A DNA stretch of 33,841 bases from Planctomycetia bacterium (GTDB taxonomy: Bacteria; Planctomycetota; Planctomycetia; Pirellulales; UBA1268), in NCBI GenBank assembly GCA_009926295.1, contig RFPF01000004.1:1-33841 (forward strand), given 5' to 3'. Below the pieces are notes generated by a model, which did no database searches, had not been told where the DNA came from, and was given only the letters and a program-made list of their open reading frames with translations. Numbering within the stretch: position 1 is the first letter of the stretch; each line of letters begins with the position of its first letter. Below, piece after piece: positions 28,631-32,160 of the stretch. The position numbers were made by a program, and so were the translations under genes.

Positions 28631-28654
28631 CGGGCCTCAGCCCGGCGCCTCTCG
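28631..28654. repeat. REP-like palindrome between convergent purF and trmB
   Basis: CGGGCctcaGCCCG hairpin; preceded by taggac; gcccggcgcctctcg is identical to 15 nt of repeat copy A. Confidence 0.5.
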
Positions 28655-29362
28655 GCGGCGAGCCGGGACCCCGGCGGAATCCGCTTCATCTCCGCTGCCG
28701 CGCACGACCGACGCGGGCCGGTCGTTGCGGGTGAGCAGCGCACGCCACACCGGAGCGCCCGCGAGGCGTGTGCGGCGCTCGAAGTGCGTGCGGTAGTCGA
28801 GGTCGTGCTCGGCCGGCCTGGGCTCGACCGCAGCCGGTTCGGCGAACAGGCCCGTGGCCCGCGATACCTCGAGCGATTCGAGGAAGTATTCCTCGACGTC
28901 GGTCCACACGTGAACCACGCCGCCGGGCGGGAGCACGCGGCCTGCGTGGCGGAGGAACGTCGGCGACAGGACGCGGCGCTTGCGGTGCCGGGCCTTCCAC
29001 CATGGGTCGGGAAAGTAGACGTGGATCGCGTCCAGGCAGGCGTCGGGCAGGAGGCCACGGACGAGCCACGTTGCATCGCCATGGATGATCCGCGCGTTCG
29101 CGGCGGCACGGCGGGCGAGACGGGCCGCGCACAGCCGGGCGTAGCCGGCGGCGATCTCCACGCCGAGAAAGTTGCGTTCGGGCCGGGCAGCCGAGGCCGT
29201 GTCGAGAAACAGGCCCTTGCCGCTGCCCACCTCGAGTTCGATCGGCGCCGGACGCGGGAAGAGCGTGGCCGGATCGAACAGGTCGGTCAGGTTGCCCAGG
29301 GCCACGAGATGCGTCGACAGATCGAGCGCCGGGTCGGGTTTCTTGGGCGGCCGGCGCGGCAT
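28637..29362 (-). CDS. trmB: tRNA (guanine-N7)-methyltransferase
   Basis: IELEVGSGKGLFL, NFLGVEIAAGYARLCA, IHVYFPDPWWKARHRKRRVLSPTFL. Start at MPRRPPKK, overlapping the fabZ-like stop (TGATG). Confidence 0.92.
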   Translation of the reverse strand: MPRRPPKKPDPALDLSTHLVALGNLTDLFDPATLFPRPAPIELEVGSGKGLFLDTASAARPERNFLGVEIAAGYARLCAARLARRAAANARIIHGDATWLVRGLLPDACLDAIHVYFPDPWWKARHRKRRVLSPTFLRHAGRVLPPGGVVHVWTDVEEYFLESLEVSRATGLFAEPAAVEPRPAEHDLDYRTHFERRTRLAGAPVWRALLTRNDRPASVVRGSGDEADSAGVPARRREAPG

Positions 29363-29889
29363 CAGTGGGCCGCCGCGCCGCCGGAAGACTGGAGCAGAAA
29401 GTCCATCGGCAACGGCACGCCCTTGATGACTCCGTCGACCACGATGCTCTCGCGGACGATGCCCTGGAAGCGGCACACGATCATGGCCTTCGGCCGCACC
29501 CGTACCCGCTCCACGGCGATCACGAGCCGGTCGCCCGGCACCACCGGCTCCCGAAAACGAACGTCTTCCATGCCGCCGAAGCCGATCACTTGGGCGTCGA
29601 GCAGGTTGTGCTTCTGGGTGTAGTAGCTGGAGAGCTGCGCGGCCGCCTCGCACATCAGCACGCCCGGCATGAGCGGCACCGCGGGGAAGTGCCCGCGAAC
29701 CCAGAATTCGTCGCGGGTCACATCCTTGTAGCCCACGCACAGACCGCGGCTCTGGTCCTCGTGCACGATCGCCGTCAACTGCTCCATCTCGAACCGCTGC
29801 TTGTTCCAGCGGCGGATCTCGTCGATGTCGGCGATGACGTGCTCGAGGTCGTATTCGCTCGGATGGATGATGTAGTCACGCGGGGCCAC
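29362..29889 (-). CDS. 3-hydroxyacyl-ACP dehydratase FabZ-like (hotdog fold)
   Basis: RGHFPAVPLMPGVLMCEAAAQLSSYY matches the FabZ active-site helix; 175 aa. Confidence 0.85.
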   Translation of the reverse strand: MAPRDYIIHPSEYDLEHVIADIDEIRRWNKQRFEMEQLTAIVHEDQSRGLCVGYKDVTRDEFWVRGHFPAVPLMPGVLMCEAAAQLSSYYTQKHNLLDAQVIGFGGMEDVRFREPVVPGDRLVIAVERVRVRPKAMIVCRFQGIVRESIVVDGVIKGVPLPMDFLLQSSGGAAAH

Positions 29890-29917
29890 GGCCGTGCTCC
29901 CTCGGGCAGCCAGCGGG

Positions 29918-30016
29918 TCAGGTGCGGATGTGCTTCCGCTTCATCTTCCGGGCCTTGCTGTTGGCGGGCCGGGCGCCGTGGTTGGCCTTCTTCAGGCCTC
30001 GATGGGGCTTTGCCAT
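29918..30016 (-). CDS. 32-aa highly basic small protein
   Basis: ATG...TGA: MAKPHRGLKKANHGARPANSKARKMKRKHIRT; SD-like GGAGAA about 7 nt upstream; sits in a co-directional cluster. Below the ORF-track length cutoff. Confidence 0.7.
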   Translation of the reverse strand: MAKPHRGLKKANHGARPANSKARKMKRKHIRT

Positions 30017-30097
30017 GATTGGTTCTCCGGGCGGATGAGATGGTCGGCGATCGGCGAGTTGTACCACGCCGCCGCCCCCGCCGCCACGCCGCCCGGT

Positions 30098-30619
30098 TCA
30101 GGGTCGGCGGTCCGCCGCCGCGGTCTCGCGCTCGGCCGCGATCGCCTCCCGGAGGCTCGTGCGGAGGATCTCCACGAAGCTCGCCCCGAGAAACCCGAAC
30201 AGGCCGCCGATCACGCCCGAAGACAGGCCACCGAGCGCCGCGCCCGCCCACGAGCAGGTCGTGCAGGTGACCAGTGCCGCCGCACCGATCACGGCTCCGG
30301 AAACCGCGCCGATCGTCGCGGACACCGCCGCGAGCCTTCCGAGGCCGCCTGTCCGCTCGAGGTGGGTGGTGCCCGCCGCGGGCAGCACCGTGGGCCAGAC
30401 CCTGATCCCGGCGTGCCTGGCGAGGTCGCGGTCGGTCGCGTCCCGCATCCTCGTGCCGAGGGCGTTGCCTGCGACGTGCGCCGCGAGGCTCGCGAGCACC
30501 ACGGCCATGGCCATCCAGCCCGCGATGCCGAGCCAATTGACGGCGGCGCAGGCGACCGCGACCACGACCACGAGCCAGGAGTAGTTGACCAGTCGCAAGG
30601 CGCCCTCCGCCACCATCAT
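30098..30619 (-). CDS. Hypothetical membrane protein
   Basis: MMVAEGALRLVNYSWLVVVVAVACAAVNWLGIAGWMAMAVVLASLAAHVAGNAL...; several TM helices; start near 30619. Confidence 0.65.
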   Translation of the reverse strand: MMVAEGALRLVNYSWLVVVVAVACAAVNWLGIAGWMAMAVVLASLAAHVAGNALGTRMRDATDRDLARHAGIRVWPTVLPAAGTTHLERTGGLGRLAAVSATIGAVSGAVIGAAALVTCTTCSWAGAALGGLSSGVIGGLFGFLGASFVEILRTSLREAIAAERETAAADRRP

Positions 30620-30642
30620 AGCCGCGGGCTGCGCGGAGGCGG

Positions 30643-32160
30643 TCAGAACTCGCTGTCGACCGCCTCTTCGCGATAGATCGGCAGCAGGCGGTAGTAGACC
30701 TCGAGCGTGAGCACGGCCAGCGCCGTGTGGGCCAGCCGGCCGCCGGGCGCCGTGTCGTGGTCGGCGAAGAACCAACTGCCGGCTTCGTGGCCGAACCGGG
30801 CCTGCTGGGCGACGATCTGGTCGCGGTTCTTCGCGTTCCACCGGGGCCAGACGGGGTGGTCGAGCTGGAGGAGCGCCTGCGACAGGTAGAAGTTTTGGTA
30901 GATGTTCGTGGGATGGGGGCCGGGCTTCGCCAGGTTCGTGATGCCCCGCTGGAGCGGCTCCTGGGTGCTGCCCCAGCCGGTGTACATGCGGCACAGAAGG
31001 CCGATCGCCGACGTGCATGGCTTCGCGGCCGGCGTGCGGTATCCGTAGGCGGCTCCGCCCTGCGTCTGTACGCGGTCGAGGAACCGCCGCGCCGCTTCGA
31101 TCGTCGGCGACGGCACCTCCATGCCGGCGAGCGCCGCGCTCTTGAGGGCCGCGATTTGCCAGGCCGTCACGGTGATGTCACCGGCCTGCCCGGGCAGGTA
31201 GCGCCAGCCGCCGCCGTGGAGATCCTGCGCCGTCTCGGTGAAGCGTATGGCATCGCGCAGGTAGGGCCGGAGCATTTCGTCGCGGGTCATGCCGAGGGCC
31301 TCGGCGAGCGCGAGGGTCGTGACGCCGTGCCCGTACATCGTGCCCTCGCAGAAGTCGCCGCCGCGGGGGGTTGGCTGCATCCGGCTGACGAGATAGTAGA
31401 TGCCGCGCGACACCGTCTGCTGATACGGTCCGTCCACGTGCGTGCTGCCCGCACCGAGGAATGGCAGGATTGCGATCGCCGTGCTCGCCGTCGAGCCGGT
31501 GAGCGTGCCGGGGTCACGGCACGCCCCGTCGCAGAGACAGCCCGAGAGGTTGAATTGCCACGAGCCGTCCACGGCCTGATGGCGTGCCAGCCACGCGAGT
31601 CCGGCCTCCACCGCGGCCTCGCTGGCCGCCGATCCACCCCGCGCCCGAGCGCCGGCGGTGCGGCCCTTCCCGCGCCGCGCTGCGAAGGCTGCCGTGCCGG
31701 TCGTGGCAGTCCGGATCGCCACATTCGAGCCTGCGGCCGCCGGTGCCGGGCCGCCACCGATCCGCACCGACACCGCCAGCGCCGGCGGGCCGGCGGGGTC
31801 GAACGGTTCCGCGCCGCTGCCCGGGACGTCGAGCAGGGCGGCGTCGGGTTCGGCGACGGCGACGACCGGCACCTCCTCGCTCGCCGGGGCGTCGGCGGCG
31901 GGCGGCGTTGCAGCGGCCGTTTCCGCCGCCGGGTCGCCAGCGTCCACGCCGACGTCGGCGAGCAGCGCGTCACCGGCCGCTTCGGGGCCGAATTGCAGGA
32001 CCAGCGGCCTCACCGGGTCGGGGCGATTCCCGTCGAGAAAGAACAGGGCCAACACGATGCAGATGAAGAGGTGCGCGACGAGGCTCGCGTAGCCTGCCCG
32101 CACGGTCGGGCTCGTGATCGCCCGTTCGATCCACGGCTTTTTGGGGTGCCCGTGCGGCAT
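30643..32160 (-). CDS. TM-anchored prenyltransferase/squalene oxidase-repeat protein (paralog 1)
   Basis: AGYASLVAHLFICIVLALFFLDG TM; repeats GLAWLARHQAVDGSW, AQDLHGGGWRYLPGQAGDITVTAWQIAALKSA, GLLCRMYTGW. Confidence 0.85.
   Translation of the reverse strand: MPHGHPKKPWIERAITSPTVRAGYASLVAHLFICIVLALFFLDGNRPDPVRPLVLQFGPEAAGDALLADVGVDAGDPAAETAAATPPAADAPASEEVPVVAVAEPDAALLDVPGSGAEPFDPAGPPALAVSVRIGGGPAPAAAGSNVAIRTATTGTAAFAARRGKGRTAGARARGGSAASEAAVEAGLAWLARHQAVDGSWQFNLSGCLCDGACRDPGTLTGSTASTAIAILPFLGAGSTHVDGPYQQTVSRGIYYLVSRMQPTPRGGDFCEGTMYGHGVTTLALAEALGMTRDEMLRPYLRDAIRFTETAQDLHGGGWRYLPGQAGDITVTAWQIAALKSAALAGMEVPSPTIEAARRFLDRVQTQGGAAYGYRTPAAKPCTSAIGLLCRMYTGWGSTQEPLQRGITNLAKPGPHPTNIYQNFYLSQALLQLDHPVWPRWNAKNRDQIVAQQARFGHEAGSWFFADHDTAPGGRLAHTALAVLTLEVYYRLLPIYREEAVDSEF

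Follow-up and report, generated by a model that had tools for sequence, protein, structure and literature searches.

A 32-residue basic reading frame next to a fabZ-like gene in a Pirellulales planctomycete is very probably the gene of the ribosomal protein bL37

The locus studied here raises the question of whether an open reading frame (ORF) of only 32 codons, situated immediately upstream of a fabZ-like gene in a 33,841-nucleotide stretch of DNA from a Pirellulales planctomycete (hereafter the window), encodes a protein and, if so, which one. The ORF lies at 29918-30016 on the minus strand, with its ATG at 30016-30014 and its TGA at 29920-29918, and its translation is MAKPHRGLKKANHGARPANSKARKMKRKHIRT; the plus strand of the same segment gives a peptide unrelated to it. 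A first-pass annotation of this DNA had described the ORF as bounded by an ATG and a TGA, preceded by a Shine-Dalgarno-like GGAGAA, located 28 nt upstream of the fabZ-like gene in the same orientation and composed of lysine, arginine and histidine for almost half of its residues, and the whole of this description is borne out on the minus strand. The GGAGAA motif (30023-30028, minus strand) ends 6 nt before the ATG, and a similar motif is found 5' of the ORF in 46 of 58 homologues. The fabZ-like gene lies on this strand too and begins at 29889, leaving a gap of 28 nt (29890-29917) after the stop codon of the ORF. The peptide contains 7 lysines, 5 arginines and 3 histidines, i.e. 15 of its 32 residues (47%), and neither aspartate nor glutamate, which corresponds to a pI of about 12 and a net charge of about +12. 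One ORF of 25-45 residues with at least 47% K/R/H and no acidic residue exists in the whole window, and none appears in 60 mononucleotide shuffles of it.

The search of NCBIfam (release 20) matches the 32-residue protein with the equivalog model NF047429.1, 'ribo_Plancto_bL37', over the totality of its 32 positions and with a score of 63.4 bits for a cut-off of 40. No other NCBIfam family is reported for the protein, and Pfam gives no match, whether the protein is submitted singly or with 30 homologues. By its sequence, the protein is thus a member of the curated family of planctomycete bL37, and we are highly confident that the ORF encodes, in this Pirellulales planctomycete, the large-subunit (50S) ribosomal protein bL37. 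The initial suggestion of a small ribosomal or ribosome-associated protein is supported by this full-length match above the cut-off. That annotation had not recognised the peptide as bTHX or bS22, and both candidates (the latter carrying the AURKAIP1/COX24 domain) were rejected here, since the 30 family members have no Pfam match and there is no second NCBIfam match. The gene is therefore already known in the sense that it is listed as a curated family, and it is an ordinary gene for planctomycetes. Our search of the literature and of structures returned no paper on planctomycete bL37, no structure of a planctomycete ribosome and no mass spectrometry of one, and the presence of the protein in this ribosome is proposed by homology. 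No relative of the planctomycete type was found in phage and plasmid records, nor one of the actinobacterial type in plasmid records.

Two of the checks suggested with the first-pass annotation, the survival of the frame in relatives and a comparison of the dN/dS type, speak in favour of a gene. In a translated search, the frame is found in 63 of the 72 genomes of the family to which the window belongs and in all 34 of those that are of good quality, as a single copy except for an extra weak partial match in four genomes. Over 30 loci of the family, the mean pairwise identity is 82.5% inside the 99-nt ORF and falls to 29.5% and 31.5%, i.e. near random, in the 60 nt before and after it. Codons differing at one base comprise 4351 synonymous and 392 non-synonymous pairs, which gives an omega-like ratio of 0.03; these pairs are counted without phylogenetic correction, and the contrast is far beyond any effect of that kind. 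The other frames over the same segment give ratios from 0.34 to 29, the value of 0.34 belonging to the reverse frame that is in mirror phase with the third codon positions. The ORF is a genuine protein-coding gene under strong purifying selection.

The neighbourhood of the gene leads to the first alternative, in which the ORF would be a leader peptide or upstream ORF controlling fabZ and devoid of a function of its own. The next gene downstream starts with a GTG and encodes a FabZ-like 3-hydroxyacyl-ACP dehydratase of 175 residues (29362-29889, minus strand; NF000582, 82.3 bits, E 2.9e-23, under the equivalog cut-off of 113), and it is followed by trmB, the gene of the tRNA (guanosine(46)-N7)-methyltransferase (28637-29362, minus strand; TIGR00091, 124.6 bits for a cut-off of 112.65). 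The short distance on the same strand would suit such a control, as would the linkage to fabZ, which is observed in most Pirellulales and, within the family, in 30 out of 30 loci. The genome scan gave 80 loci, of which 72 show it, and three of the eight exceptions are cut by contig ends. However, no fabZ match is found within about 1.5 kb of the bL37 gene in family f11, which belongs to the same class, or within 0.5 kb in more distant classes, and the protein is conserved there all the same. The loss of the linkage in these groups indicates that the bL37 gene is independent of fabZ and largely refutes a leader peptide, which is moreover contradicted by a conservation acting at the amino-acid level and by the curated ribosomal family covering the ORF; we regard it as very unlikely. 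As a separate observation, seven loci of this gene order (L101, L104, L108, L115, L127, L130 and L133) come from public metagenome-assembled genomes titled 'Candidatus Kuenenia stuttgartiensis', in which bL37, fabZ and trmB follow one another as in the window, with a FabZ identity of 78-92%; these titles are probably wrong.

Among the 394 Planctomycetota genomes of our survey, 119 are matched by NF047429 and 126 by the broader profile A1, whose six weakest matches (E 5e-4 to 0.009) are probably due to chance. Hand counts of the search tables give bL37 in 38 of the 39 genomes of the window's order outside its own family and in 44 of the 45 genomes of f11, and its occurrence in the remaining phylum is patchy (35 genomes). 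Neither NF047429 nor the A1 profile detects it in any of the 14 genomes of f12, f13 and f14, three families of the same class, which means that evolution can dispense with the protein. Two genomes that are 99% complete and belong to groups otherwise positive, G353 and G444, also lack a match. A search of the profile-negative genomes with the motif AAYCAYGGNNNNMGNSCN yielded many chance matches, of which 39 stretches, a part of the total, were read and revealed no bL37-like ORF.

In an alignment of 30 diverse Planctomycetota sequences (A1), M1, A11, N12, H13, G14 and R16 are invariant, and R6, K9 and P17 nearly so, P17 being conserved in at least 90%. Most of these positions fall in the core KKANHGARPAN (residues 9-19; 29960-29992, minus strand), which includes the KxANHGxRP motif at residues 9-17 and is common to actinobacterial bL37 and to the Tetrahymena mitoribosomal protein mL102. 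It is followed by a basic C-terminal tail (residues 20-32; 29921-29959, minus strand), in which AlphaFold2 predicts a helix at residues 20-28, with a mean pLDDT of 77 and a pTM of 0.38 that make the model only indicative. The sole loss of the core proline was seen in two loci of family f53, L097 (G134) and L098 (G158), where NHGKRAC replaces NHGKRPx; G178, another member of f53, retains it.

Actinobacterial bL37 is described by a separate NCBIfam model, NF047428, which is unreported for the window protein at E values up to 10. The two types nevertheless meet in three other comparisons. An M. smegmatis-like bL37 query, one residue off the PDB sequence that it matched, hits NF047429 with an E value of 0.0022. 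The profile of the 30 Planctomycetota sequences, run against the 177,635 sequences of the PDB, retrieves M. tuberculosis and M. smegmatis bL37 with E values of 0.0021 to 0.037 and just one unrelated protein, at E 0.9. Finally, hhalign aligns planctomycete with actinobacterial bL37 with a probability of 96% over 14 core columns. The core of the planctomycete protein is thus homologous in sequence to that of actinobacterial bL37, through a link that is short, some 14 residues, but firm. Against the identification stand the shortness of this link and the flanking helix, which is predicted on the other side of the core.

This homology permits a proposal for the role of the protein. The structures from M. 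smegmatis and C. acnes place bL37 deep inside the rRNA, in a pocket to which H39, H40, H41/H42, H72 and H89 (by its buried side) contribute, behind the peptidyl-transferase centre and under the tip of the 5S rRNA, and a steadying effect on H89 of that centre has been proposed for it (PMC5876184, PMC10085706). The planctomycete protein would be expressed constitutively and become part of the 50S subunit, where the KxANHGxRP loop would enter the pocket made of H39, H40, the base of H41/H42, H72 and the buried side of H89, below the 5S tip, clamp these rRNA elements together and steady H89. The C-terminal basic helix, absent in actinobacteria, would provide additional rRNA contacts, in the region through which the C-terminal end of Tetrahymena mL102 extends in the direction of the A-site tRNA. 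A sequence homologue now acting outside the ribosome, such as a peptide with antimicrobial activity or one that binds nucleic acids in general, would be in keeping with the highly basic character of the protein and with the inhibition of staphylococcal growth on discs by C. acnes bL37 (PMC10085706). Yet this disc activity may come from nothing more than the charge that a short basic peptide carries, a hydrophobic signal sequence is not apparent, the near-universal presence in whole orders is that of a housekeeping protein, and conservation is highest at the core residues, which the protein has in common with the ribosomal bL37 of solved structures; such a departure from the ribosome appears highly improbable. 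As for a chance ORF in GC-rich DNA between genes, where short ORFs are common and two longer antisense ORFs overlap this one (29365-30018 and 29894-30676), it is already refuted, with practically no chance left, by the frame kept in every good-quality relative, its omega-like ratio, the shuffles and the curated family.

The protein uL30 (PF00327) is detected in none of 45 Planctomycetota genomes, G000 included, with 13 of 14 controls positive, and the full-length Planctomycetota 5S rRNA matches (loci L220-L240) measure 107-110 nt, helix IV/loop D being shorter at its tip by several bases when the E. coli 5S sequence is used for the register. Both features fit an open pocket, without proving it. 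The idea that bL37 compensates for the lost uL30 was rejected, uL30 being missing from bL37-positive and bL37-negative genomes alike, and so was a tie between bL37 and the shortened 5S tip, which is found in genomes with and without bL37 and does not discriminate between them. Since they are common to genomes lacking bL37, neither of the two explains its presence.

The link with Tetrahymena extends the question beyond bacteria. mL102 (6z1p chain AQ) is the sole PDB match of the single window sequence (E 0.001) and the best PDB match of the 30-sequence planctomycete profile (E 4.3e-8). Its residues 62-89 out of 109, RNARPPKKANHGARPCSSVMRRLKKKYF, align with positions 3-30 of bL37, thereby covering the core and the basic tail, and the stretch KKANHGARP is identical in the two proteins; NF047429 scores this segment at 26.7 bits (E 5.3e-6), under the model cut-off. 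mL102 is located between the central protuberance and the L7/L12 stalk, in a structure paper whose main text does not mention bL37 (PMC7326499). By our own reading, this location is the neighbourhood of the bL37 pocket, and we predict from the alignment that mL102 would hold the same position as bL37. The wider model that we propose has, in our judgement, an even chance of being correct: mL102 would be a mitochondrial bL37, and bL37 a patchily kept family with a core that fills the pocket behind H89, present in actinobacteria, in planctomycetes and in one or more mitochondrial lineages, where it would have outlasted the loss of 5S rRNA; the basic tail of the planctomycete and mL102 form would reach towards the A-site tRNA. 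If so, bL37 would not be an actinobacterial novelty, and the 'mitochondria-specific' mL102 would be a bacterial protein.

In conclusion, the ORF very probably represents a real ribosomal gene of a kind that length-limited gene callers can miss, and the curated family together with the present survey gives bL37 a wider range than the actinobacterial one of published belief. What remains of interest is this published actinobacterial-only view, the rebuilt helix and mL102. Compared with the planctomycete 50S protein defined by NF047429, the window protein is a member and presents no difference, and the more distant Planctomycetota members found here score under the cut-off of that model. Other proteins fill the same cleft as bL37, namely an N-terminal extension of uL30 in Borrelia, which resembles bL37 only partially (PMC10618245), and CLaSP in Coxiella, which has no substantial sequence identity to it (PMC13392368). 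mL102 differs in being a mitochondrial protein of 109 residues with extensions on both sides of the bL37-like segment, in a mitoribosome devoid of 5S rRNA. Actinobacterial bL37 (M. smegmatis 5o60 chain 3, M. tuberculosis 7kgb chain v, C. acnes 8crx chain V) is, like the planctomycete protein, very short and basic, with the core ANHGKRP; it begins with a basic helix of some 13 residues and continues with a loop that carries ANHGKRPN at its end (PMC5876184). Of its 24 residues almost none follow the core, whereas the planctomycete protein is shorter by about 5 residues before the core and longer by 13 after it, and is thus without most of the N-terminal basic helix and endowed instead with a basic C-terminal tail, helical by prediction. 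The actinobacterial arrangement of a helix and then a loop is therefore replaced by a core and then a predicted helix, which would sit on the opposite side of the core and hints at a way in which such a plug can be remodelled.
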